Assembly: GCA_015488615.1 (NCBI GenBank)
Contig: WFNM01000079.1
Span: forward strand, 1-43,081
Reading direction: 5' to 3'
Source: Sulfurimonas sp.
GTDB lineage: Bacteria; Campylobacterota; Campylobacteria; Campylobacterales; Sulfurimonadaceae
Length of the DNA stretch: 43,081 nt
Under the pieces are notes generated by a model. The model had not been told where the DNA came from and made no database searches. It saw only the letters and a program-made list of their open reading frames with translations. Made by a program: the position numbers and the translations under genes. Positions 19,294-43,081 of the stretch are shown piece by piece. Positions within the stretch are counted from its first letter, which is position 1, and every line of letters starts with the position of its first letter.

Positions 19294-21660
19294 ATGATTA
19301 CAGTTATAAAAAGAAATGGTCGAACAGAACCATTAGATATTTCAAAAATCCAAAAATATACCGAAGCAGCAGTAAAAGGCTTAGCAAATGTTAGTCAGAG
19401 TGAGCTTGAGGTTGATGCACAGATTCACTTTCGTGATGGAATTACTTCTAAGGAAATTCAAGAGACACTTATAAAAACTGCTGTAGATAAGATAGACATC
19501 GATGCACCAAACTGGACTTTTGTAGCCTCTCGTCTTTTTATCTTTAATCTCTACCACCAAGTAAATGGTTTTACCGGTTATAGTTCTTTAGAGAGCTACT
19601 TCATAAAAGGTGAAAAAGAAGGACGCATACTTTTTGGACTTAAAGAGATGTATGACCTTGATGAGCTAGAAAAGCACTTAGTACCTGAACGCGACTTTCA
19701 GTTTAACTACCTTGGTGTAAAAACTCTTTATGATAGATACCTTATAAAAGATAGAAACTCTAACCCTATAGAACTTCCACAACATATGTTTATGGCTATC
19801 TCTATGTTCCTAGCACAACGCGAAGAAAACCGTACTGAATGGGCTATCAAGTTTTATAACATGATATCTCAGTTTGAAGTGATGCTCGCTACTCCAACTC
19901 TCTCAAACGCAAGAACAACACGTCACCAACTCTCTTCATGTTATATTGGTTCTACTCCTGATAACATCGAAGGTATCTTTGATGCTTACCAAGAGATGGC
20001 AATGCTCTCTAAGTTTGGTGGTGGTATCGGTTGGGACTGGACACAGGTTCGCTCTATGGGTTCATTTATCGATGGACACAAAAATGCAGCAGGTGGAACA
20101 GTTCCATTTCTCAAAATAACAAACGACATCGCTATTGCAGTTGACCAGCTTGGAACTCGTAAGGGTGCTATCGCAGTTTACCTTGAGCCTTGGCACATAG
20201 ATATCAACGACTTCTTAGACCTAAAGAAAAACTCTGGTGAAGAGCGTCGTCGTGCTCACGATCTTTTCCCATCACTTTGGCTTAACGATATGTTTATGCA
20301 GCGTGTTCAAGAGGATGCGATTTGGACTCTTTTTGATCCTTATGATGTTCGTGAGCTCTCTACACTTCATGGAGAAGCTTTTAACAAACGCTACCTAGAG
20401 TTAGAACAAGATGAGTCACTTATAAAAGAAAAGCTCAAGGCAAAAGATCTTTGGAAAAAGATTCTTACTTCTTACTTTGAAACTGGTTCACCATTTCTTT
20501 GTTTTAAAGATAATGCTAACCGTGCTAACCCAAATGACCATGTTGGGATTATCCGTAGTTCAAACCTCTGTACTGAGATTTTTCAAAACACAAAGCCTAA
20601 CCATTACAAGATAAAGTTCATCTTTGAAAATGGTGAGAGTGTGAGTTATGAAGAGGATGAGATAGTTAAAGTAGATAGTGGCATAGAAAAACTAGCGAAG
20701 AAAGTAACTGCGTTAGACTCACTTGGTGGTCTTCCTATCTTCGTAGTAGAAAAAGAGAAAGTAGACGGGGATACGGCTGTTTGTAACCTTGCTTCTATAA
20801 ACCTTTCTCGCATAAATACAACCAAAGAGATAGACCGTATCGTTCCTACTGCTGTGCGTTGTTTGGATAACGTTATAGATCTTAACTTCTACCCTGTTGA
20901 GAAGGTAAAACGCACAAATATGAAGTCGCGTTCTATCGGTCTTGGTGTTATGGGTGAAGCACAGATGTTAGCAGAACAAAAAATCATGTGGGGAACACAA
21001 GAGCACTTTGACAAGATAGATGAGCTTATGGAATCTGTTTGTTATAACACTATCGCTGCGTCCTCTGAACTTTCTGTTGAAAAAGGTGCTTATCCTGACT
21101 TTGATGGAAGTAAGTGGAGCCATGGTATTTTCCCTCAAGACCATGCAAATGCAGAGGTAATCAACCTTGTAGATCGTGGTGGACTCTTTGCCTCTTCTTA
21201 TGAGTGGGATGAGCTGCGTACACGTGTTCAAAAGCAGGGAATGAGAAACGGTTACTTAATGGCTGTTGCACCTACGAGTTCTATCTCCATCTTAACAGGA
21301 ACTACTCAAGCTATTGAGCCGGTGTTTAAACGCAAGTGGTTTGAAGAGAATCTCTCTGGACTTATTCCAGTTGTAGTACCTAAACTCTCTCCAGATACAT
21401 GGAGCTACTACACACCAGCCTATGACCTTAACCAAACAGTGCTCATAAAAGCTGCTGCGATTCGTCAAAAGTGGATAGATCAAGGGCAATCACTTAACAT
21501 CTTTATCACTCTGGATAAAGCAAGTGGGCGTTACCTAAACGAGATTTATATGCTCGCATGGAAACTCGGACTCAAGTCTACATATTACCTGCGTTCACAG
21601 TCTCCAGAAGTGGCAAATGATGTAGAGGATAGAAGTATGGAGTGTGTTGGATGTCAGTAG
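19294..21660 (+). CDS. nrdA: Class Ia ribonucleoside-diphosphate reductase alpha subunit
   Basis: It reduces ribonucleoside diphosphates to deoxy forms, using a tyrosyl radical delivered by NrdB. The 788-aa protein has an N-terminal ATP cone (1-95, VIKRNGRTEPLDISKI), the redox-active Cys 216 (SSCYIG) and Cys 497 (AVCNLA), the radical site N424-x-C426-x-E428 (SNLCTE), and a C-terminal CVGC pair that shuttles electrons from thioredoxin. GAAGGA precedes the ATG. NrdB is not adjacent; separate nrdA and nrdB loci are also what I recall for Campylobacter. The gene overlaps the next ORF by ten bases, so nrdA heads a run of genes that includes a thioredoxin, its usual reductant. Confidence 0.97.
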   Translation: MITVIKRNGRTEPLDISKIQKYTEAAVKGLANVSQSELEVDAQIHFRDGITSKEIQETLIKTAVDKIDIDAPNWTFVASRLFIFNLYHQVNGFTGYSSLESYFIKGEKEGRILFGLKEMYDLDELEKHLVPERDFQFNYLGVKTLYDRYLIKDRNSNPIELPQHMFMAISMFLAQREENRTEWAIKFYNMISQFEVMLATPTLSNARTTRHQLSSCYIGSTPDNIEGIFDAYQEMAMLSKFGGGIGWDWTQVRSMGSFIDGHKNAAGGTVPFLKITNDIAIAVDQLGTRKGAIAVYLEPWHIDINDFLDLKKNSGEERRRAHDLFPSLWLNDMFMQRVQEDAIWTLFDPYDVRELSTLHGEAFNKRYLELEQDESLIKEKLKAKDLWKKILTSYFETGSPFLCFKDNANRANPNDHVGIIRSSNLCTEIFQNTKPNHYKIKFIFENGESVSYEEDEIVKVDSGIEKLAKKVTALDSLGGLPIFVVEKEKVDGDTAVCNLASINLSRINTTKEIDRIVPTAVRCLDNVIDLNFYPVEKVKRTNMKSRSIGLGVMGEAQMLAEQKIMWGTQEHFDKIDELMESVCYNTIAASSELSVEKGAYPDFDGSKWSHGIFPQDHANAEVINLVDRGGLFASSYEWDELRTRVQKQGMRNGYLMAVAPTSSISILTGTTQAIEPVFKRKWFEENLSGLIPVVVPKLSPDTWSYYTPAYDLNQTVLIKAAAIRQKWIDQGQSLNIFITLDKASGRYLNEIYMLAWKLGLKSTYYLRSQSPEVANDVEDRSMECVGCQ

Positions 21661-21998
21661 GTATAGACTTAGCACGCTTTAATAACTTCAAAGATGTAGA
21701 ATTTCGCTCTTTAGAGGTTCTCTCTCCGCTAGAAATAAATGCGACCTTTGCCGTCCAAGATGCGGCACGTGCTCACAACTGGATTACTATCACTCTCAAG
21801 TTTAGCGGTGTAAGTGATGCACGACTTGTAGAGAGTAACAAAATCTCTTTTATTGATCTCAGTGATGGGATAAGTATCATAAAAGATGAGAAGCTTATTG
21901 CTTTTGGAATAGGGGAGTGCTATAATATAGAGAACATAAAGAATTCTTCATGCTACATCTGTGCAAATAGTTTTAAGTATGAAGAGGGAAATTTCTAA
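21651..21998 (+). CDS. Conserved hypothetical protein, 115 aa
   Basis: The ATG overlaps the nrdA end by ten bases; an in-frame GTG three codons earlier is less likely. The product is soluble and mixed alpha/beta: MSVGIDLARFNNF, then ATFAVQDAARAHNWITITLKF, a DLSDGISII strand, and a C-terminal SSCYICANSF with two Cys three apart. The W-I-t-i-t-l-k-f pattern suggests a small beta-barrel or sheet. No family recognised. Position suggests co-expression with nrdA and fliW, but no functional link can be read from the sequence. Confidence 0.85.
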   Translation: MSVGIDLARFNNFKDVEFRSLEVLSPLEINATFAVQDAARAHNWITITLKFSGVSDARLVESNKISFIDLSDGISIIKDEKLIAFGIGECYNIENIKNSSCYICANSFKYEEGNF

Positions 21999-22011
21999 AA
22001 AAGGATTTTAA

Positions 22012-22395
22012 ATGAGTTATAAAGTACGAGGAGAACTGCTTGGTTTTCCTGATACATTAAATGTAGAGATCACAGAGATAGATGAAATGTTCTCAACTAT
22101 GAAAGATATTGATAATGAACATATATCATTCACACTCGTAAATCCTTATCTCCTACGCGAATACTCTTTTGATATTCCAAGTGATATTAAAGTACTTTTA
22201 GAGGTGAATGATAAGTCAAAGATAAATATCTATAACTTACTTGTAATACAAAAGCCTTTAGAAAATTCTGTTATAAACTTTTTAGCTCCTATAGTTATAA
22301 ATAGCGATAATAATAAACTCGCGCAGATAGTTCTTAACCCTATAAAATATCAAGATTTCGGCATAGCCGAGACTATAAAATCTTTTAGATCTTAA
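22012..22395 (+). CDS. fliW: Flagellar assembly factor FliW
   Basis: FliW binds flagellin and the RNA regulator CsrA; when flagellin is exported, free FliW captures CsrA and relieves repression of flaA translation. The 127-aa product matches in length and has the family strands ISFTLVNPYLL near 38-48 and VINFLAPIVINSDNNKLAQIVLNP around 87-110, typical of FliW. AAAAGGA precedes the ATG. csrA, its usual neighbour in Bacillus, is not beside it; instead a chemotaxis-type receiver and phosphatase follow at two-base and zero-base spacing. This places flagellar assembly control in a sensory operon. Confidence 0.9.
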   Translation: MSYKVRGELLGFPDTLNVEITEIDEMFSTMKDIDNEHISFTLVNPYLLREYSFDIPSDIKVLLEVNDKSKINIYNLLVIQKPLENSVINFLAPIVINSDNNKLAQIVLNPIKYQDFGIAETIKSFRS

Positions 22396-22397
22396 TC

Positions 22398-22751
22398 ATG
22401 AAGTATCTAGTAGTAGACGATTCTAAGTTAGCACGATTAAGCCTTATTAAGAGCCTTAAGTTATATACTGGTGAGAGTAAAATATTTCAAGCAACTAATG
22501 GGCTTGAAGCAGTTGCACTTATGGATCAAGAGAAAGCTGACATAGTTTTTTTGGATTTGACTATGCCTGAGATGGATGGATATGAAGCACTTCCTAAACT
22601 CCTAGAGAGTAATCCAAAAGCAAAAATTATTGTCGTTTCAGCAGATATACAAAAACAAGCACAAGAGAGAGTTATTGCTCTTGGAGCACAGATCCATGTA
22701 CAAAAACCTATAAATACAGAAAAAATGCAAGACATCTTAGAGATTATCTAA
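22398..22751 (+). CDS. CheY-like single-domain response regulator
   Basis: A 117-aa receiver domain without an output domain: acidic pocket D7 and D8 (LVVDDSK), phospho-acceptor D53 (VFLDLTMPEMDG), switch S81 and K103 (VQKP). All catalytic positions are present. The gene begins two bases after fliW and is followed directly by a CheC-like phosphatase gene, so phosphorylation is probably set by a nearby kinase (23300-24877 is the obvious candidate) and reset by CheC. Motor-switch binding cannot be judged; it may not be the main CheY. Confidence 0.95.
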   Translation: MKYLVVDDSKLARLSLIKSLKLYTGESKIFQATNGLEAVALMDQEKADIVFLDLTMPEMDGYEALPKLLESNPKAKIIVVSADIQKQAQERVIALGAQIHVQKPINTEKMQDILEII

Positions 22752-23345
22752 ATGCATATACTTACAGAAGATGAAAGGGATATACTTCAAGAACTTATGA
22801 ATGTGGCATATGGTAATGCTACTGCTGTAGTTGCCGATATGCTTGATGCCTTTGCTTCGCTAAGTATTCCCAAGATAAGTATCATGCAAACAGAAAAACT
22901 TCTTGAGACTTTTGATACACTCAAAAGCACAAGTTACTTCTTCTCAACGCAAGCCTTTAGTGGAGAGTTTAATGGTGAAAGTGCTTTTTTTATAAACAAA
23001 GAGAGTGCAGAGAACTTAGCAAAACACCTCGAACTAGAATCCCCAGAAGATATTGATGATGCTATCTTAGAACTCACAAATGTCCTTACCTCTTCACTTA
23101 CTACAAAGTTAGCAGAGGAGATGGATACAGTTGTCAGTTTTTCACTGCCAAATATTTCACAGGTTCCACTAGAAGAGATACATGATGTTGCAACTTTTAA
23201 ACAGTACTCACAGGTTATAGTTATAGACACAGATCTCAACTTCGAAGATCAGCAGATAAATGGTAAAATATTTATCCTCACAAAAGATGAATCAATCCAA
23301 TGGCTCAAAACGAAACTCAACACTATCCTCGAACTCTTGATATAA
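22752..23345 (+). CDS. CheC/CheX-like CheY-P phosphatase
   Basis: The 197-aa protein shows two copies of the CheC signature: E-L-M-N-V-A-Y-G-N-A near residues 14-23 and D-A-I-L-E-L-T-N-V-L near 97-106, in which the Glu and Asn act on the receiver phosphate. Two such motifs favour CheC over CheX, which has one. It starts at the base after the CheY-like gene stop, so the two are coupled. Its last 46 bases overlap the next kinase gene in a different frame. It should dephosphorylate the adjacent regulator; activity on other CheY proteins is possible. CheD, the usual CheC partner, is not adjacent. Confidence 0.85.
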   Translation: MHILTEDERDILQELMNVAYGNATAVVADMLDAFASLSIPKISIMQTEKLLETFDTLKSTSYFFSTQAFSGEFNGESAFFINKESAENLAKHLELESPEDIDDAILELTNVLTSSLTTKLAEEMDTVVSFSLPNISQVPLEEIHDVATFKQYSQVIVIDTDLNFEDQQINGKIFILTKDESIQWLKTKLNTILELLI

Positions 23346-24877
23346 ACAAAAAAGTTGTCGAAAACATCGACAATGGTATCTTAGTCTTAAATGACACGCT
23401 AGAGATACATCACTTCAATAGGTGGCTAGAACTTCATACTAACATGAAAGAAGATGCTGTTAGGGGTAAAATACTCAATACACTTTTTACAAACATCAAC
23501 ACAAAAACACTTATTAGAAAAATCAAAACTGCCCTGCGTTTAAACTCACCTACCTTTTATACAGCCAGTACCTCAAAATACCTCATACCAATAAAGATCA
23601 ACGAACTTACAAATTCTAGTTTTGAGTATATGCAGCAAGATGTGAGTATCATTCCCTTTGATTCAGAACAAAATTTAGTCGCACTCATCATAACAGACCA
23701 AACAAATATGGCTAACACTAACACACTACTTCACTCGCATATTCTCAAAATTAGAGAACTAAATACAGAGCTCCTAAAAGAACGAGAGACTATAGATAAA
23801 AAGGTACTCCTTCTCAAACTAGATAGGGAAGGTAAAATATCAGATGTCTCACAAGCACTCTTAGAACAGCTTTATTACGAAAAAGATGAGCTTTTAAATT
23901 TAGAGTATCTCCATCAAGAGCGTTACAACCTCAATAACTCATTGAAAAATGAGATTCTTCTTTGCATGCGAGAGAAAAAAGTCTTTGAGTATGAAGAAGA
24001 GACACAAACTTCCAATGGAGAAGAAATTATATTTAAAAGTACTCTCATTACTGAGTATAATGCAAGTGGAGAACATCTTGGATTTATTCTCTTTCGAGAA
24101 AATATAACAAATTCAAAACATCTTGCACAAACACAAGAAAAAATGTTAGCCACTTCAAGAAGTGCTGCTATGGGGGAAATGCTCTCAATGATAGCCCACC
24201 AATGGCGTCAACCTCTTTCACTTATCAACACCATTATGGCGACCCTTAAGATAAAAACACAGCTCAACAAACTTGATACAGATACAATGTTTAATTCTTT
24301 TGAAAAGATAGAATCGACAACAAAATATCTTTCTGAGACAATAGATGATTTTAGCGACTATTTCAAACCAAACAAGTTCGCATCAGAGTTTCTGCTTTAC
24401 GAACTTTTTGATAAGTCTATCTTTTTTCTCAAAGATGAGATGGAACAGCAAGGGATAACTTACAAGATAAATATTCCTCAAAATCTACATATCTATACCT
24501 ACAAAAATGAGCTCCTCCAAAGCATCATTAATATCATCAAAAACTCTGTAGATGCCTTTCACAAGAAAGAGACAACAAACAAACATATTAAAGTAATTGT
24601 AGAAGACCTAGAGTCACACCTCTCTATAAGTATAGAAGATAATGCAGGTGGTATTAAACCTGAGATACTCAAAAAAGTCTTTGAACCCTACTTTTCTACT
24701 AAAAGTAATAATGGCACAGGACTAGGTCTTTATATGTGTTATACCATTATAACAGACCATCTCAAGGGGAGTATTAATATGCGTTCACAAAATGCTACTA
24801 CAATAACCTTGTTAGAATTACCATATAAATTAATACAAGGAAAAAATCATGCGAGTAATCTGTCCACACTGTCTTAG
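23300..24877 (+). CDS. Soluble PAS-domain histidine kinase
   Basis: The 525-aa kinase has no membrane segment. Two PAS-like regions (about 18-135 and 165-270) are joined by a coiled coil near 140-165, then HisKA with H300 in IAHQWRQPLSLIN, and an ATPase domain with NIIKNSVDAFH, DNAGGI and the glycine loop NGTGLGLYM. It should sense a cytoplasmic cue, such as redox or energy state, and phosphorylate a receiver; the CheY-like gene two genes upstream is the nearest candidate. The ATG at 23300 lies 46 bases inside the CheC-like gene with only a weak ribosome site. The last 29 bases overlap the thioredoxin gene and add a short unstructured tail. Confidence 0.9.
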   Translation: MAQNETQHYPRTLDINKKVVENIDNGILVLNDTLEIHHFNRWLELHTNMKEDAVRGKILNTLFTNINTKTLIRKIKTALRLNSPTFYTASTSKYLIPIKINELTNSSFEYMQQDVSIIPFDSEQNLVALIITDQTNMANTNTLLHSHILKIRELNTELLKERETIDKKVLLLKLDREGKISDVSQALLEQLYYEKDELLNLEYLHQERYNLNNSLKNEILLCMREKKVFEYEEETQTSNGEEIIFKSTLITEYNASGEHLGFILFRENITNSKHLAQTQEKMLATSRSAAMGEMLSMIAHQWRQPLSLINTIMATLKIKTQLNKLDTDTMFNSFEKIESTTKYLSETIDDFSDYFKPNKFASEFLLYELFDKSIFFLKDEMEQQGITYKINIPQNLHIYTYKNELLQSIINIIKNSVDAFHKKETTNKHIKVIVEDLESHLSISIEDNAGGIKPEILKKVFEPYFSTKSNNGTGLGLYMCYTIITDHLKGSINMRSQNATTITLLELPYKLIQGKNHASNLSTLS

Positions 24878-25271
24878 CGTAAACAATGTCCCAAAAAAAG
24901 AGTCTTACAAAAAAGCTAACTGCGGTAAATGTAAGGAATCCCTACTTGATACAAAACCTATAGAGCTTAGTGCTAAAACTTTTGATGAAGTAATAGTTAA
25001 CAGTGATATTCCAGTCTTTGTAGACTACTGGGCACCTTGGTGTGGTCCATGTAAGATGTTTGGACCTACATTTGAAAAAGTGGCTCAGTCCTTTCCTCTT
25101 AAGGCACTCTTTACAAAAGTAAATACGGAAAAGGAACCTTCTCTTAGCTCTCAAGTAGGTATACGAAGTATTCCTACTCTCATCGTCTTTAAAAATGGAA
25201 AAGAAATAGAACGTGTGAGTGGTGCTCTCGATGAAAGATCACTAAAAGATTTAATCTTACGATTCATTTAA
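24849..25271 (+). CDS. trxC: Thioredoxin 2 (zinc-ribbon thioredoxin)
   Basis: The 140-aa protein has an N-terminal zinc ribbon, C5-x2-C8 and C25-x2-C28, followed by a thioredoxin fold with the WCGPC active site at 64-68 and the cis-Pro loop SIPT near 111-114, the layout of E. coli TrxC. It reduces disulfides in cytosolic proteins; NrdA, encoded at the head of the same gene run, is a known thioredoxin client. AAGG stands eight bases before the ATG, which lies inside the end of the kinase gene. TrxC-type zinc domains release zinc on oxidation, which suits an oxidative-stress role. Confidence 0.94.
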   Translation: MRVICPHCLSVNNVPKKESYKKANCGKCKESLLDTKPIELSAKTFDEVIVNSDIPVFVDYWAPWCGPCKMFGPTFEKVAQSFPLKALFTKVNTEKEPSLSSQVGIRSIPTLIVFKNGKEIERVSGALDERSLKDLILRFI

Positions 25272-25315
25272 TTTTCAACTTTTTTAGAGATACCAGAGCC
25301 AAATAAGGATGAGAA

Positions 25316-28300
25316 ATGAAACATCTAAGTTTTTTATATAATGATACAAAAAGCTACAAAATAGCAAAAAAAGAAGCTCAAAAGTCTAAGTATGTAAGTG
25401 CACTTATCCAGCTTTTTAGTAGTACTATGAAAAAGAAGCTTATCAAACAAAAACTCCTTACCCTTAAAAAAGATTTTCCAAATGCAACTATCATAGGTAC
25501 GACAACTGCAGGAGAAATTTCTAGAGCTAAAATGTACGAAAGAGAGATAGTAATAAGTCTCTCTCTTTTCAAAAATACAAAACTTTCTGCCTATAGAACA
25601 CAAAGCATTTCAAAAGAGTCAGGAAAAGAACTCTCTGCTAAAATTTCTAACAAAAAAACAAAAGCTGCAATTATCCTCAGTGAGGGGCTAAAGGGAGAAG
25701 ACTACGAAGGTTTCATCAAGGGTGTAAAAAAAAGGAATCCTCATGTTATCCTTGCTGGCGGTTTAGCTGGTGATAACTTCGCTCTGAAAAAAACATATAT
25801 TTTTATGAATAACAAAGTCTATGACTCAGGAGCAGTAGGTGTCGCCTTCTCTGGTAAAAATCTCACGGCAAGTAATGAGTACAATCTCAACTGGAACCCT
25901 ATAGGCAAAGAGTTCACTATCACAAAAGTAGAGGGCAATATGCTCCTCGAGATAGATAATAAAAATGCTATAAAAGTGATAAAACACTACCTAGGAAAGA
26001 CTCTTTTTGAGAACAATTGTGCCACACTTGCTGACTTTCCCCTTCTCTATAAAGAGGGCAATACAGTAGTTTCAAGAACTCCAATGGCTATAGATGGGAA
26101 AAAAATAATCCTTGCAGGACCTATAAAAGAGGGACAAAAAGTGCAGTTTGGTTTTTCAAATGCAACAAGTATCATCTCTGGAGCAAATGCCATAAGTACA
26201 AAACTCAACCAAAACCCAGCAGAAGCTATCTATATCTACTCATGTATCGCACGTAAAACACTTCTTGGTAAAAAACTAGAGTCTGAGTTTGCTCCTTTTG
26301 AACAACTTGCACCAACTTCTGGTTTTTTTACCTATGGGGAGTTTTATAGTACTGATATCAATAATGCACTCCTTAATTGTACAACTACTATCTTGCTCCT
26401 TTCTGAAACAAAAAAAAGAAAGAAAAGAAAGAAAAAAGAACTTTTCCAAAAAGATGAGAAGAGTCTCGATAGTATCACCTTTGATGCTCTTACCCACTTC
26501 ATCAAACAGACTTCAAGTGAACTTAAAGAGAATACTACCCTACTTGAAGAGTATAGGGATGTAGTTGATCAGTCTTCACTTGTTTCAAAAACAGATATAA
26601 AAGGGAACATCACCTATGTGAATGATACATTTTGCCGAGTGAGTCAATACTCAAGAGAAGAGCTTATTGGACAAAACCATAATCTTATTCGTGATCCTAA
26701 TATGTCAAAGTTCATCTTCAAAAAGCTCTGGAAAAAAATCACAAAAGGGAAAATCTGGCGTGGAATCATCTCTAATATCGCTAAAGATGGCTCATTTTAC
26801 TATGTCGCAGCCACTATCATGCCTATTTTTGATGCAAACCATAAGATTAAAGAGTTTATCGCTATTCGTCAAGATATCACGAAGCAGATAGAGTCAAAGA
26901 GACGTATACAAGAGAAAGAAAAACTTATAAAGGCTATCTTTGATAATCAAGATGCTATGGTCATTTATGCTTCAAAAGAGTTGGGTATGCTTAGTGTGAA
27001 TAAGAAGCTCTTTGAAACTCTCAACTTCAATTCTCTTGAAAACTTCAAAGAAAAACATAACTGCATCTGTGATCTCTTTTTAGAAGAAGAGGGATATGTA
27101 TATACAAAAAAATATCCTCATTGGCTAGAAGATATAGCTGAAGGTAGGCTTGAGACACAAAACAAGGTTAGAATGATTGTTAGAGATGGAACTAAACATA
27201 CTTTTACTATTCTTGTCAAAAAATTTGATGACCAATACATCATCAACCTTAATGATATTACACTCTTAGAAAGTGCAATGCTCAAGGCTTATGCTTCTGA
27301 ACAAGCTAAAACTATCTTTTTAGCAAATATGTCTCATGAGATACGTACCCCTCTCAATGGTATCCTTGGATTTACAGATATTTTAAGCAAAAAAAATTTA
27401 GGAAAAGAGGAAAAACGTTATATAGACATTATCCATAAAAGTGGGCAAACACTTTTACATGTCGTAAATGATATACTTGATTTCTCTAAGCTAGAGAGTG
27501 GTGAGCTTGCTCTTTATGAGACAGAAGCCGACCTTTTTGCCGAAATGGAAGCGACAGTTGCTACTTTTGCATCCGTATCAAAGAGTAAGCAAGTAAACTT
27601 CTATGTTTATATAGATACAACTCTACCAAAACTTCTCAAGTGTGATGTGCAGAGACTCAAACAAGTTGTAAACAACCTCATATCTAATGCTATTAAGTTT
27701 ACACCAAAAAATGGTGAAGTTCATGTAAATATCCTCCTTAAGTCGATAATAAACGACAAGGCAAAAATTCACTTTAGTGTCAAAGATAGTGGTATCGGTA
27801 TTCCAAAAGAGAAGCAAGGGACAGTTTTTCAAGCCTTTTCTCAAGCAGATGATTCCATCAGTCGTGAGTTTGGAGGGACAGGACTTGGACTCTCTATTAG
27901 TGGTCAATATGTCAATATGATGGGTACACAGATAGAACTAAAATCGGTGCAAGGAAAGGGCAGTGAATTTTTCTTCGATTTAGAACTTGCCGTTGCAGAT
28001 GAGAGTAGCTCTATAGAACAAACTGATAACCACAGTATTGAAATTGCTGTTATTCACTTTGATAATATGATAGGGTGTGCTATTAACAATATAGTCTTCT
28101 CCTATCTTGATGCTTGGCACTATAGTTATACAAAAGTCAATAAGATAGAAGATGTCTCCGATACAACAGATATTATCATAGTCTGCTCAAAAATCTTTGA
28201 TACAAATGCTTGTAAAGATGCTCTTGATAAGTATGAAAAACTACAACTTATTTATATAGAAGGAGTAGATGGACATTTTACCTGTAATCATGAGAAATTT

Positions 28301-29119
28301 CATCTCGTGGAGCAACCAATGACAGGTTCAGCCCTCTTTGACAAGATTGTCACACTCACACAAGATAACATACAACTATATCATAGAAAGGACACTTCAG
28401 ACAATATGACTTCACAATATAGCGGTCATGTACTTATAGCTGAAGATAATAAAACAAACCAAATACTTATCTCCATACTTCTTGAGGAACGTGGTTTAGA
28501 ATATACTATCGTAGAAAATGGACAAGAGGCAGTAGATGCTGCATTTCAAAATAACTATGATCTTATTTTTATGGATATAAATATGCCCATCCTTGATGGT
28601 GTAAGTGCCACCAAAGAGCTACGTAAAAAGAATTACACTGCGCCTATTGTATCTCTCTCTGCAAATGTTATAGAGAGTGATTTACTCTCATTTAAAGAGG
28701 CTGGGGTGGATGATTCGCTCAATAAGCCTATCGTCCATAAAGAGTTAGACAATATACTAACAAAGTATCTCTCCTCTCCTACCCCTCATGAAGAGCCAAA
28801 GCTTTACGATAAACTAGACTTAGAAAAGATAGCAACAGCACTCAAGATTGCTGATATAAATATAATTACTTCTTTAGTTAAAAGTTTTGCATCAAGTCTA
28901 GTAGAGATAAAGAAGAGTATAGAGGAGAAGGGTATCACAGGAGATATACTCCATAACCTTAAAGGTATGGTAGGTAACCTGCGTTTTAGTGAGTTTCAAA
29001 AGTTTATTGTTCGTGCTGAAAAGGAATATGGAGAGTGGAATATACAGGTCAAAGATAGAGAAACACAAGAGCTTCTCAGACATATTGAGCAGATACTCAA
29101 ACAAATAGACACACTTTAG
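25316..29119 (+). CDS. FIST/PAS/PAS hybrid histidine kinase with receiver and Hpt domains
   Basis: The 1267-aa sensor has no clear membrane segment. Order: FIST N (about 25-200, TIIGTTTAGEIS, VILAGGLAGDN), FIST C (about 215-365, EAIYIYSCIAR, GFFTYGEF), a basic linker KKRKKRKKK near 367-374, PAS 1 (about 410-525, Aer-like NITYVNDTFCRVS), PAS 2 (about 535-655), HisKA with H674 (MSHEIRTPLNG), ATPase (DSGIGIP, GGTGLGLS), receiver with D1087 (FMDINMP) and Hpt with H1213 (LHNLKGMVGNL). FIST domains are predicted to bind small ligands such as amino acids. All phosphorelay residues are present, so phosphate can pass H-D-H to an outside receiver. The gene converges on a response regulator, overlapping by four bases. 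Confidence 0.95.
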   Translation: MKHLSFLYNDTKSYKIAKKEAQKSKYVSALIQLFSSTMKKKLIKQKLLTLKKDFPNATIIGTTTAGEISRAKMYEREIVISLSLFKNTKLSAYRTQSISKESGKELSAKISNKKTKAAIILSEGLKGEDYEGFIKGVKKRNPHVILAGGLAGDNFALKKTYIFMNNKVYDSGAVGVAFSGKNLTASNEYNLNWNPIGKEFTITKVEGNMLLEIDNKNAIKVIKHYLGKTLFENNCATLADFPLLYKEGNTVVSRTPMAIDGKKIILAGPIKEGQKVQFGFSNATSIISGANAISTKLNQNPAEAIYIYSCIARKTLLGKKLESEFAPFEQLAPTSGFFTYGEFYSTDINNALLNCTTTILLLSETKKRKKRKKKELFQKDEKSLDSITFDALTHFIKQTSSELKENTTLLEEYRDVVDQSSLVSKTDIKGNITYVNDTFCRVSQYSREELIGQNHNLIRDPNMSKFIFKKLWKKITKGKIWRGIISNIAKDGSFYYVAATIMPIFDANHKIKEFIAIRQDITKQIESKRRIQEKEKLIKAIFDNQDAMVIYASKELGMLSVNKKLFETLNFNSLENFKEKHNCICDLFLEEEGYVYTKKYPHWLEDIAEGRLETQNKVRMIVRDGTKHTFTILVKKFDDQYIINLNDITLLESAMLKAYASEQAKTIFLANMSHEIRTPLNGILGFTDILSKKNLGKEEKRYIDIIHKSGQTLLHVVNDILDFSKLESGELALYETEADLFAEMEATVATFASVSKSKQVNFYVYIDTTLPKLLKCDVQRLKQVVNNLISNAIKFTPKNGEVHVNILLKSIINDKAKIHFSVKDSGIGIPKEKQGTVFQAFSQADDSISREFGGTGLGLSISGQYVNMMGTQIELKSVQGKGSEFFFDLELAVADESSSIEQTDNHSIEIAVIHFDNMIGCAINNIVFSYLDAWHYSYTKVNKIEDVSDTTDIIIVCSKIFDTNACKDALDKYEKLQLIYIEGVDGHFTCNHEKFHLVEQPMTGSALFDKIVTLTQDNIQLYHRKDTSDNMTSQYSGHVLIAEDNKTNQILISILLEERGLEYTIVENGQEAVDAAFQNNYDLIFMDINMPILDGVSATKELRKKNYTAPIVSLSANVIESDLLSFKEAGVDDSLNKPIVHKELDNILTKYLSSPTPHEEPKLYDKLDLEKIATALKIADINIITSLVKSFASSLVEIKKSIEEKGITGDILHNLKGMVGNLRFSEFQKFIVRAEKEYGEWNIQVKDRETQELLRHIEQILKQIDTL

Positions 29120-30006
29120 AGAAAACCGTAGTTGCCTCTATTTTTATCTAGCTCTTGTGCCTTTAACTGTATCTGCTTATACAAGGAAGGAACACTAAGC
29201 ATTCTCTCCTTTACATTGTAGAGTACAGCAGAGATATGGACTAACTGACTTAGGTTTTTATCCTTTGCAATCTCACTATAGATACTTTTATGAAGTTTTG
29301 TAATCTCTTCTTTAGAGTAATCTTTCACAAGTATACCAAAACTCACACCATAGAGTCTTGAGACAACTGCATTTGAGTAACTTTTACTTTTGAGTATAGC
29401 TGCAACTCGCTTAATAATTTTGTTTGAAGCATAAAAACCATAGAGAGCATTTATTTTCTCAAAATTATTGAGCTTAAAGTAGAGTATCCAAAAATCTTTC
29501 TTACCACTCTGTTGTATCTTTATTTGTGAATCAAAGTAGAGGGAGTTTGTAAGTTTTGTGAGTGGATCTGTTATACTTAACTGTGCAAGTTTTGACTGCT
29601 TATGTTTTATCTCTTCTAGGTAAGAGAGATTTTGTAACTGTGTTTTTACACGAGCTTTAAGCTCTACACCATTAAAAGGCTTAGATATATAGTCTGCACC
29701 ACCAACTTCAAATGCCTTAGAAATATACTCTATATCAGTCTGAGCCGTGAGAAAGATGATAGGAATATCTTTTGTCTTTAAATCCTCTTTGAGCATCTTG
29801 CAGACTTCAAATCCATCCATTTTAGGCATATTTATATCTAAAAGTATAAGGCTAATATCTTTTGCATAGATAATCTCGAGAGCTGCTTTAGCATGAAGAG
29901 CAAAAGAGACCTTATAGCCCTCTTCTTTGAGGTAAACTGCTGCAAGTTCTACATTAAACTTTTCATCATCTACTATGAGAATATTAAAGTTATTGTTTGT
30001 TTTCAT
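29116..30006 (-). CDS. Response regulator with degenerate GGDEF domain
   Basis: The 296-aa protein has an intact receiver (D57 in LLDINMPKMDG, K109 in ISKPF) and a C-terminal domain that starts like a GGDEF domain (SITDPLTKLTNSLYFD, near 143). At the active-site position it has Y-G-V-S-F (219-223) instead of GG[DE]EF, and no RxxD inhibitory site. It therefore should not make c-di-GMP; it may act by binding a partner. It follows ppnP at one-base spacing and faces the FIST kinase gene with a four-base stop overlap; it is a reasonable but unproven acceptor for that kinase's Hpt domain. Confidence 0.9.
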   Translation of the reverse strand: MKTNNNFNILIVDDEKFNVELAAVYLKEEGYKVSFALHAKAALEIIYAKDISLILLDINMPKMDGFEVCKMLKEDLKTKDIPIIFLTAQTDIEYISKAFEVGGADYISKPFNGVELKARVKTQLQNLSYLEEIKHKQSKLAQLSITDPLTKLTNSLYFDSQIKIQQSGKKDFWILYFKLNNFEKINALYGFYASNKIIKRVAAILKSKSYSNAVVSRLYGVSFGILVKDYSKEEITKLHKSIYSEIAKDKNLSQLVHISAVLYNVKERMLSVPSLYKQIQLKAQELDKNRGNYGFL

Positions 30007-38213: not shown

Positions 38214-39521
38214 GTGAATATCGGACAAGAGATACTAGAAAATTTAAAAGAAGAGATAAGTGAGAGCGAGTATAAACGCTATATCCGCCATCTCGTTTAT
38301 GATGTGAAGAAGTCTACACCTGAACTGGCACTATTTTATGCTCCAAATGCACTTGTTGTGAACTGGATTAAAAATAAATACACTGAAAAAGTAGCACACC
38401 TCTTTGAAGTCAAGACTAACTCCAAGGTAACAGTGAAAATCACACTTAAAAACCTTGTAGATAAACGCAAGAAACAAAAAGTCGTTGAAGTAAAGCAGGG
38501 AAATTCTCTTTTGAACCCCTCACACTCCTTTTCAAACTTCATGGTAGGTGGCTCAAACCAGTTCGCTTACTCTGCAGTCAAAAGCATCAGTGAAAAACCG
38601 GGAATACTTTACAATCCTCTCTTTATCTATGGTGGCGTTGGACTTGGAAAGACTCACCTTATGCAAGCGGCTGGAAATGTCTTTCAAAATGAAGGAAAAG
38701 TTGTTATATATACTACTGTTGAGCAGTTTTTAAATGACTTCGTTCGCCATCTCAGAAACAAAACGATGGAACGTTTTCAAGAGAAATACCGTAAATGTGA
38801 TGTGCTTCTCATAGATGATATTCAGTTTCTCTCCAACAAAGAGTCTATCCAAGAGGAGTTTTTTCATACCTTTGAAGCCCTCAAAGGTGCGGGTAAACAG
38901 ATAATCCTCACAGCAGATAAACCACCAAAAAAGATAGGTGGACTTGAAGCAAGACTTCAAAGCCGTTTCGAGCATGGACTAGTTGCTGACATACAACCTC
39001 CTGAGCTTGAGACAAAGATAGCCATCATAGAGAAAAAGTGCGAGATAAATAAGGTTCAACTCTCTAAAGAGATAGTTAACTATATTGCCACTGTTATAGA
39101 CTCAAATGTCCGTGAGATAGAAGGCATACTCTCAAAACTCCATGCCTACTCACAGCTAATGCATGTAGACATAGACCTTGAGTTTACAAAAAATGTACTC
39201 AAAGATCAGATGGCTGAAAAACGCGAGAATCTTACTATGGATACTATCACTGAAGTGGTTTCAAAAGATCTCAACATCAAACCTAGTGAGATACGCTCTA
39301 AAGGTCGAAGTAAAAATATCGTCTATGCAAGAAGAATCGCTATCTATATCTGCCGTGAACTTACACAAAATACTATGCCTCAACTCGCACAATACTTTGG
39401 TATGAAAGACCACACTGCCATCAGTCATACCATTAAGAAAATAAATGAATTAATCAAAGATGATGAAGATTTTAAAACAAAAATAGATGAGTTAACAAAC
39501 AAAATAACAAATATCTCTTAA
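38214..39521 (+). CDS. dnaA: Chromosomal replication initiator DnaA
   Basis: The AAA+ initiator opens oriC and loads the replicative helicase. The 435-aa protein has the N-terminal helicase- and HobA-binding domain (1-85), Walker A GGVGLGKT (140-147), Walker B VLLIDDIQF (197-205), the sensor region, and the C-terminal DNA-binding domain with ARRIAIYICRE and the signature MKDHTAISHTIKKI. The start is GTG at 38214 after a weak AGG site; a DnaA-box-like sequence covers the start codon, so DnaA may repress its own gene at this point. dnaN and gyrB follow on the same strand. Length is typical. Confidence 0.98.
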   Translation: MNIGQEILENLKEEISESEYKRYIRHLVYDVKKSTPELALFYAPNALVVNWIKNKYTEKVAHLFEVKTNSKVTVKITLKNLVDKRKKQKVVEVKQGNSLLNPSHSFSNFMVGGSNQFAYSAVKSISEKPGILYNPLFIYGGVGLGKTHLMQAAGNVFQNEGKVVIYTTVEQFLNDFVRHLRNKTMERFQEKYRKCDVLLIDDIQFLSNKESIQEEFFHTFEALKGAGKQIILTADKPPKKIGGLEARLQSRFEHGLVADIQPPELETKIAIIEKKCEINKVQLSKEIVNYIATVIDSNVREIEGILSKLHAYSQLMHVDIDLEFTKNVLKDQMAEKRENLTMDTITEVVSKDLNIKPSEIRSKGRSKNIVYARRIAIYICRELTQNTMPQLAQYFGMKDHTAISHTIKKINELIKDDEDFKTKIDELTNKITNIS

Positions 39522-39680
39522 AAAAAGATATAATTGCAAAAGTGAATAGACGTGAATAGAGTTACTAAGACTCATCACGTCCTTTTTAGTCAAGTTTTAG
39601 GGTCTTTGGTGGAGGTTTTCACCTTTTCACATGCACCTACTACTACTTACTAAAAATTATATAATATATAGGGAATTTAC
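39522..39680. other. oriC2: DnaA boxes and AT-rich unwinding region between dnaA and dnaN
   Basis: Two GTGAATAG repeats (39542-39549 and 39552-39559) are spaced ten bases apart, about one helical turn. Facing them are TTTTCACC (39616-39623) and TTTTCACA (39624-39631), so four TTCAC cores converge. A run of nearly pure A and T at about 39649-39671 follows and could be the unwinding element. In this class, in vitro work has placed unwinding downstream of dnaA, in oriC2. The dnaN promoter must also lie here. Confidence 0.75.
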
Positions 39681-40748
39681 ATGATAATAACTATTGCTAA
39701 ATCAATACTTGAAAATATACTTATCCACTCTGGACCTTTTTTAGAAAAAAAAGATACTTCACAGATAACATCACATGTCTACTTAAATGCTATAAATAAC
39801 TCTCTTACTCTTAAAGCTACAGACTATGAGATAGGCTTTATGGTAAGTACATCTGAAGTACATATTGATAAAGAGGGTAGTATAACTGCTAATGGTAAAA
39901 AGTTCTTAGATATCGTTCGTATATTAAAAGATGGAAATATCAACTTAGAAGTAAAAGGTGATACTCTTCATATTTCTCAAGGTCACTCAAACTTTAAACT
40001 TCCTACTTTTTCTCATAATGATTTTCCAGAGTTTCCATCTTATGAAGGTAAGGCACGTATCTCAATAGAGTCTCACATGCTCATAGAGTCCTTAAAGAAG
40101 ATAACTCCAGCTATCGACACTAATAACCCAAAATTTGAGCTTAATGGAGCTCTCATAGACATTAAACATGATCTTATAAACTTTGCTTCTACAGATACTC
40201 GTCGTTTAGCTGTTGTAACACTTGCAAACAATAGTGAAAGTGAACTTAGCATCATCATTCCAAAAAAAGCTATTATAGAAATACAAAAACTTTTCTTTGA
40301 TAATATAGAACTTTATTATGATGATACAAATCTTATCATCCACTCTGAGCAGTATACTTTCTTTACAAAACTTATAAATGGTAAATTTCCAGAGTACTCA
40401 AGAATTATTCCTAAAGAGATAAAAAACTCACTTTTACTTCCTAAAGCGGTTATGATTGACTCTATCAAACAGATAACAACTATCTCAACAGATGTAAAGA
40501 TTACTTTTGTAAATGAGGTCATTACTTTTGAGTCTCTTAGTGATGATAATATTGAAGCTAAAACAGAAATAGGTTATGCAACAGGATTTTCTGAACCTTT
40601 TTCTTTAGCTATTAATTCTCGCTATCTTCTAGATTTTTTAAACTCTATAAACAACTCTGAGTTCACTATAGGACTTAACGAAGGAAACCTTCCATTTATC
40701 CTAAGTGATGATAATTTTAAAACAGTAGTAATGCCAATTGTAATTTAG
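39681..40748 (+). CDS. dnaN: DNA polymerase III beta sliding clamp
   Basis: The ring-shaped clamp tethers DNA polymerase III to DNA. The 355-aa length suits the three-domain clamp and the weak repeats are visible: LKATDYEIGFMV (53-64), NGALIDIKHDLINFASTDTRRLAV (about 154-177) and the C-terminal INSRYLLDFLNS ... FKTVVMPIVI, where the M-P tail closes the ring surface that binds partners. GGGAAT precedes the ATG. It sits in the dnaA-dnaN-gyrB order with oriC2 in front. No anomalies seen. Confidence 0.97.
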   Translation: MIITIAKSILENILIHSGPFLEKKDTSQITSHVYLNAINNSLTLKATDYEIGFMVSTSEVHIDKEGSITANGKKFLDIVRILKDGNINLEVKGDTLHISQGHSNFKLPTFSHNDFPEFPSYEGKARISIESHMLIESLKKITPAIDTNNPKFELNGALIDIKHDLINFASTDTRRLAVVTLANNSESELSIIIPKKAIIEIQKLFFDNIELYYDDTNLIIHSEQYTFFTKLINGKFPEYSRIIPKEIKNSLLLPKAVMIDSIKQITTISTDVKITFVNEVITFESLSDDNIEAKTEIGYATGFSEPFSLAINSRYLLDFLNSINNSEFTIGLNEGNLPFILSDDNFKTVVMPIVI

Positions 40749-40800
40749 TTTTTAGTAAAACTTAGATAGAATAAGCGTAATTATCTTTACGGAGTTATAA

Positions 40801-43081
<2,281 letters not shown>

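Follow-up and report, generated by a model that had tools for sequence, protein, structure and literature searches.

A receiver, CheC, and PAS kinase trio downstream of nrdA in Sulfurimonas as a candidate PdcABC-type phospho-switch

Seven tightly packed genes lie behind nrdA in a Sulfurimonas genome, and their products carry flagellar, chemotaxis, and redox labels. Do they form one separate signaling circuit that ties flagellin control to redox or metabolic state, as a first-pass annotation of this DNA suggested, or does a smaller unit within the run do the signaling? The window (the whole stretch of DNA that was analyzed, 43,081 nucleotides) is contig C79 of this genome (1.84 Mb; 86.5% complete). 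ORF listing and domain searches recovered all seven annotated ORFs at the coordinates below, which also include nrdA and the parts of the kinase.

19294..21660, + strand: nrdA, an ORF; 5' neighbor of the run, outside the proposed switch
21651-21998, + strand: U115, a 115-aa protein with no assigned function; linked to nrdA in Sulfurimonas; alpha+beta fold predicted
22012-22395, + strand: FliW (PF02623, E=1.7e-24); goes with U115, not with the proposed switch
22398-22751, + strand: CheY-like receiver, phospho-Asp D53 (PF00072, 1.7e-23); component 1 of the proposed switch
22752-23345, + strand: CheC phosphatase with two ExxN-x22-P sites (PF13690, 1.6e-10); component 2
23300-24877, + strand: predicted soluble PAS histidine kinase, H300 in HQWRQPL; component 3
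23333..23719, + strand: N-terminal CheC-associated PAS domain (alignment A2; AF2 and Foldseek); constant part of component 3
23819..24109, + strand: second, ordinary PAS domain of the kinase (PF00989/PF13426, residues 174-270)
24170..24826, + strand: kinase core, HQWRQPL phosphoacceptor helix and HATPase (PF00512, below cut-off; PF02518)
24849-25271, + strand: thioredoxin 2 (Trx2, TrxC; NCBIfam TrxC equivalog above cut-off); frequent 3' neighbor
25316-29119, + strand: FIST hybrid histidine kinase (PF08495, PF10442, PF00512, PF02518, PF00072); sporadic neighbor

Composition of the run

The run is a patchwork of an nrdA–U115–FliW block, a CheY–CheC–PAS kinase core, and a less regular pair of Trx2 and FIST kinase genes. 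Within the window the genes are physically continuous. The end of nrdA and the start of U115 share 10 nt, the PAS kinase gene starts 46 nt inside cheC, and a terminator scan found no + strand terminator-like site from 20257 to 28970, so the internal terminators named in the annotation as able to split the run were not seen. Promoter-like matches in the run occurred at the level of shuffled sequence and are therefore uninformative. The annotation had also called for a survey of this gene order in Campylobacterota. The whole order through the FIST kinase was found only in a few close relatives (L020, L023; L025 and L032 lack FliW but keep the FIST kinase), and it was the sub-blocks that were widely conserved. 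Because the blocks separate in relatives, we ruled out the seven genes as one operon-circuit.

U115 had no Pfam or NCBIfam match, and its AF2 model (pLDDT 88.7) had no significant fold match in the PDB. It adjoins nrdA in loci L020 to L044, and nrdA lies directly 5' of it wherever an nrdA-linked locus carries U115. U115 and FliW were adjacent in 14 Sulfurimonas genomes, 8 of which were without a CheC of this kind. FliW accompanied the trio in 15 of the 25 nrdA-linked loci and was missing from the other 10, and it was absent from every trio locus examined in Arcobacteraceae, Sulfuricurvum, and the f20 family. Since U115-FliW often occurs without CheC and the trio often without FliW, nrdA–U115–FliW is a separate block, a Sulfurimonas gene order also found without the rest of the run, and the trio sits beside this block in one clade. 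On the same grounds, FliW was ruled out as a member of the circuit. The first-pass annotation regarded FliW without csrA as non-standard; this view did not hold, since fliW and csrA normally lie apart in Epsilonproteobacteria (PMC4894983) and csrA sits elsewhere in this genome, on contig C66. A second FliW is encoded on contig C42. As in the FliW-CsrA partner switch (PMC4894983), FliW and CsrA are both encoded in the Sulfurimonas genome, but here FliW lies beside the proposed switch and yet is apart from it.

At the other end of the run, Trx2 lies directly 3' of the kinase in 11 to 12 of the approximately 16 nrdA-linked loci with sequence past the kinase, and just 4 of the 25 gave a strong match to the FIST kinase. 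The annotated FIST kinase is present; its annotated Hpt domain reached only a weak match below cut-off (PF01627, E=0.0066). The suggested tie to redox state comes down to the position of Trx2 and was not upheld. The flagellar and redox neighbors are loosely attached to the proposed switch. What stood of the annotated circuit is a non-standard one with its own receiver and CheC, present far beyond this strain; what fell away is the membership of FliW.

A conserved trio with an exchangeable output

GTDB species contigs were scanned with the CheC alignment, which gave 80 loci. One cultured species with the locus is S. indica (L021). The receiver lay directly 5' of CheC in 74 of these, and a third gene lay directly 3' in 73 of the 75 loci with room for it. 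We then compared a CheC profile with a profile of the N-terminal PAS domain (N-PAS), each searched on its own against one set of 249 Campylobacterota genomes. The CheC profile matched 26 genomes and the N-PAS profile the same 26, with the two genes adjacent in each, and in the phylum of the "Aquificales" MAGs (named as in the record titles) both matched the same 4 of 136 genomes, again adjacently; we give this co-occurrence without a P value because the genomes are related and not independent draws. The PAS model was built from genes adjoining CheC (alignment A2), but the genome-wide scan was free to match elsewhere and hardly did: in Campylobacterota it added one lone PAS cyclase without CheC (L211). 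In a mirror-tree comparison, CheC and PAS distances correlated most closely among the three proteins (partial r, 0.66 versus 0.35 to 0.37), which is suggestive of linkage between the two.

The second gene, annotated as CheC-like, is indeed CheC and can be described more exactly as a full-length, two-site form. Both sites (E14/N17/P40 and E107/N110/P133; ExxN-x22-P) are intact, the profile match to T. maritima CheC (1xkr) had E=1e-15, and the two copies of the ExxN...P motif place the protein, as judged from its residues, in the CheC phosphatase family. Among 76 full-length Campylobacterota CheC proteins, site 1 was intact in 75 and site 2 in all 76. The annotation described this CheC as lacking CheD, and we agree: no CheD was found in this 86.5%-complete genome, and with it the mark of a canonical CheC-CheD chemotaxis system is missing from that assembly. 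In the CheC-CheD systems of Bacillus and Thermotoga, CheC links CheY~P with a partner protein. The Sulfurimonas CheC would resemble these in coupling CheY~P to a partner, but CheD was not detected in its genome, and the partner here would be the PAS protein. CheC without CheD was the useful clue toward the switch.

The receiver does not look like a motor-binding CheY. The FliM-binding CheY residues given in PMC9321776 are W58, K91, K119, and Y106-T84. By these criteria Trp should follow the phospho-Asp and Tyr should occupy position 106. In the window, the residue after the phospho-Asp is Leu, as in 74 of 74 relatives, and the Y106 position is His (F, H, or M, not Tyr, in 72 of 74 relatives). 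With no motor-binding signature, direct control of the flagellar switch by this receiver is unlikely.

The part of the third protein that is shared among loci is an N-terminal domain of ∼130 residues (alignment A2). Pfam PAS models matched this domain of the window protein only below cut-off. Its AF2 model (pLDDT 86) has a predicted PAS fold, and the Foldseek matches were PAS domains. The output end varied. Among 67 typed loci, it was a histidine kinase at 39 and a diguanylate cyclase (GGDEF) at 28, the latter in other Sulfurimonas, Sulfuricurvum, part of the Arcobacteraceae, and the f20 family. The kinase or cyclase label switched at least three to four times on a tree of 81 loci, and the 46-nt overlap with cheC was retained nearly throughout the clade of the window kinase. 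The annotation had seen a private kinase as the partner of CheC and receiver; we ruled out the kinase as the constant partner once GGDEF ends appeared, and it is the PAS domain that is the constant element. As the catalytic end is either kinase or cyclase, a simple loop in which a private kinase feeds CheY and CheC does not describe these loci in general. In the window, the third protein is a predicted soluble histidine kinase with an HQWRQPL box, which has Gln at both H+1 and H+4. In one HisKA kinase, an acidic H+1 residue is needed for kinase activity and T/N at H+4 for phosphatase activity (PMC3510030); by this pattern, HQWRQPL would be an atypical HisKA box.

A PdcABC-type reading and its rivals

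We consider it probable that the genes at 22398-24877 encode a PdcABC-type phospho-switch whose output here would be the soluble HQWRQPL histidine kinase. In the pdcABC operon of Burkholderia thailandensis (BTH_II2363-2365), according to a review (PMC9899790, which cites Wang et al. 2022 AEM 88:e02529-21), PdcA is a PAS cyclase, PdcB a CheC/CheX phosphatase, and PdcC a receiver; once phosphorylated, PdcC acts as an inhibitor of PdcA, to whose PAS domain it binds, and PdcB relieves the inhibition. Because the receiver, CheC, and PAS domain are constant, the enzyme is exchangeable, and the PdcABC mechanism as described there agrees, we read the window trio as such a switch. The comparative evidence predates our reading of the PdcABC mechanism, and both point the same way.

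By analogy, the single-domain receiver would obtain its phosphate either from the partner kinase or from some other histidine or chemotaxis kinase. It would then bind the N-terminal PAS domain dedicated to it in the third protein, and binding would alter the activity of whichever enzyme that domain carries. The two-site CheC would strip the phosphate and reset the switch. The output would be the soluble HQWRQPL histidine kinase here and, in relatives, a diguanylate cyclase, another kinase class, or nothing. The receiver-PAS contact and its sign in the Sulfurimonas kinase version are inferred from PdcABC.

The window and PdcABC both have a receiver, a CheC/CheX-type phosphatase, and a PAS protein encoded together. 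This likeness is by published description; other Burkholderia plasmid trios with the same layout were recovered with the window PAS query and match the profiles. In contrast to PdcA with its GGDEF domain, the Sulfurimonas third protein is a histidine kinase (HisKA-like and HATPase domains) with a second PAS domain, so we file the window trio as a variant and not as PdcABC proper. The Burkholderia plasmid CheC, moreover, has a degenerate second site, whereas both sites of the Sulfurimonas CheC are intact. The closest parallel in design is the RsbQ-RsbP PAS module, in which a partner and a dedicated PAS domain are combined with interchangeable outputs (PPM phosphatase, histidine kinase, or diguanylate cyclase; PMC3183031). 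Its partner is an alpha/beta hydrolase, not a phospho-receiver with CheC, and the systems are unrelated; ORF and domain searches found no RsbQ alpha/beta hydrolase gene in the run. Geobacter EsnABCD, which combines MCP-CheW-CheA with a cyclase and has no CheC, was set aside as a precedent.

The main competitor is a closed two-component loop in which the PAS kinase autophosphorylates and then phosphorylates the receiver, CheC dephosphorylates it, the receiver acts elsewhere on another protein or a c-di-GMP enzyme, and the PAS domain is only a sensor. Tiny gaps or overlaps between the receiver, phosphatase, and kinase genes and a strong Pfam match for the HATPase are consistent with such a loop, and a separate phosphatase would be useful to a kinase whose box lacks the T/N at H+4 (PMC3510030). 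However, a loop of this kind does not account for the 28 of 67 typed loci in which the third gene is a cyclase without a kinase, for PAS proteins without any attached enzyme in Pseudomonas and Aeromonas, or for the PAS domain as the constant element, and we regard it as unlikely.

Both remaining alternatives are very improbable. The original idea, that FliW, the receiver, and CheC make flagellin control or motor switching depend on redox state by way of Trx2 and the kinases, draws on the physical run, with its small gaps and no + strand terminator-like sites inside. It is at odds with the independent occurrence of FliW and the trio, the lack of a FliM-binding residue pattern in the receiver (criteria from PMC9321776), the normal separation of csrA and fliW in the phylum (PMC4894983), and the inconstancy of Trx2 and FIST. 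As a chemotaxis accessory, a spare CheY/CheC pair would instead take up and drain off phosphate from the main CheA pathway. In Arcobacter, the same receiver-CheC pair, CheYc/CheC, was placed with the chemotaxis genes (Mo et al. 2022, PMC9321776), and the trios of Nostoc, Agrobacterium, Sphingobium, and Azospirillum adjoin cheA. As in the window, CheYc is without FliM-binding residues; the pair is treated there as chemotaxis, and the third PAS gene is not mentioned in the accessible part of that paper. An accessory role would leave the constant PAS protein unexplained, however, and most Campylobacterota trio loci are not close to che genes of the kind in the window, nor is the receiver of the motor-binding type. 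The PdcABC-type switch is our preferred reading.

Spread across phyla and meaning

Beyond these genomes, with examples drawn from plasmid records only, the trio was found on plasmids of four other phyla, including those of Vibrio, Azospirillum, Indioceanicola, Nostoc, Phytobacter, Caballeronia, Burkholderia, Acetoanaerobium (Bacillota), and Gemmatirosa (Gemmatimonadota). The window PAS query matched seven plasmid records, all seven with CheC and receiver adjacent, and PAS profile A2 matched the Vibrio, Azospirillum, and Nostoc trios at E values of ∼1e-15 to 2e-16. The attached enzymes differed. The kinase class was HQWRQPL in Campylobacterota, HEINNP in Vibrio, a hybrid kinase in Nostoc, and an HRVKN-type box in Azospirillum; the output was GGDEF in Acetoanaerobium, Phytobacter, Caballeronia, and Burkholderia. 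Pseudomonas (L227, L234) and Aeromonas (L229) have a receiver-CheC fusion, with a PAS protein standing alone after it. The Agrobacterium and Sphingobium trios have a PAS domain of another family and one Azospirillum CheC has a chemoreceptor as its next gene; thus, the PAS type is not universal. Salinivibrio has a related PAS kinase, with CheC absent within the stretch examined. Judged by profile matches and gene order, the receiver/CheC/PAS trio spans at least five or six bacterial phyla, and the enzyme attached to it varies.

Two versions are already known: the receiver-CheC pair in Arcobacter (CheYc-CheC, PMC9321776) and the trio with a cyclase output in Burkholderia. In the literature outside subscription papers, we found no published account of the kinase version, of the receiver-CheC fusion with a lone PAS protein, or of the multi-phylum spread. 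It is possible, if somewhat short of probable, that the PAS family is a reader of the phospho-receiver and CheC its eraser, together a portable write-read-erase cassette placed in at least five or six phyla on kinases, cyclases, or nothing, and that in Sulfurimonas a response regulator acts upstream of a histidine kinase, which reverses the usual two-component order.

Such a reading would turn an annotated "chemotaxis" pair (CheY-like plus CheC) into a general, testable switch. It suggests a role for CheC where the genome has no CheD, and it assigns a predicted function to a PAS family nearly invisible to Pfam. The spread of the family with exchanged outputs makes domain-swap tests straightforward. 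If the kinase version is true, a response regulator would govern a histidine kinase through a PAS domain.

U115, FliW and the neighborhood of the probable replication origin

The 115-aa protein U115 (window 21651-21998; relatives' loci L133 to L156) represents an uncharacterized family. Among the relatives searched, it was confined to Sulfurimonas and present in 22 of 41 genomes, and in this genus nrdA often lies directly ahead of its gene. Paralogues with 23 to 33% identity were found at other sites. The AlphaFold2 model of U115 was good, and comparing it with the PDB gave no match. Many Sulfurimonas carry two FliW copies, one adjoining U115 and the other elsewhere; in our genome these are at 22012-22395 of the window and at 12-335 of contig C42.

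Farther along, window 38214-43081 has a 435-aa ORF situated where dnaA would lie, a 355-aa ORF situated where dnaN would lie, and a gene that we take to be gyrB. This places the gene run ∼10 kb away from what is probably the origin of replication.

The FIST hybrid kinase and its convergent neighbor

29116-30006, receiver-GGDEF response regulator, convergent with the FIST hybrid kinase gene (25316-29119)

The stop codons of these two genes overlap by 4 nt, and the convergent arrangement is likewise present at the close relative's locus, L020. The regulator is possibly the partner of the FIST kinase.

The trio and its kinase

Some loci carry only part of the trio of receiver, CheC and protein with a CheC-associated N-terminal PAS domain. 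Locus L211 (contig G348:C18, 3415-4425) encodes an orphan PAS-GGDEF protein of this type with no receiver or CheC nearby; genome G348 also has a full trio. Salinivibrio L233 (2474-3805) keeps the PAS kinase, with no receiver or CheC genes within the stretch; the kinase gene is preceded by an HDOD gene and followed by an EAL gene, as at Vibrio locus L218. In Azospirillum oryzae L231 (3091-6147), genes for a chemoreceptor and CheW come after the receiver-CheC pair, in the place where a PAS protein would otherwise be encoded.

24197-24199, HQWRQPL phosphoacceptor of the trio kinase, with counterparts at related loci

In this box, common to the trio kinases of Sulfurimonas and Arcobacteraceae, the residues at H+1 and H+4 are both Gln. 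The usual rules for HisKA kinases do not extend to its kinase chemistry.
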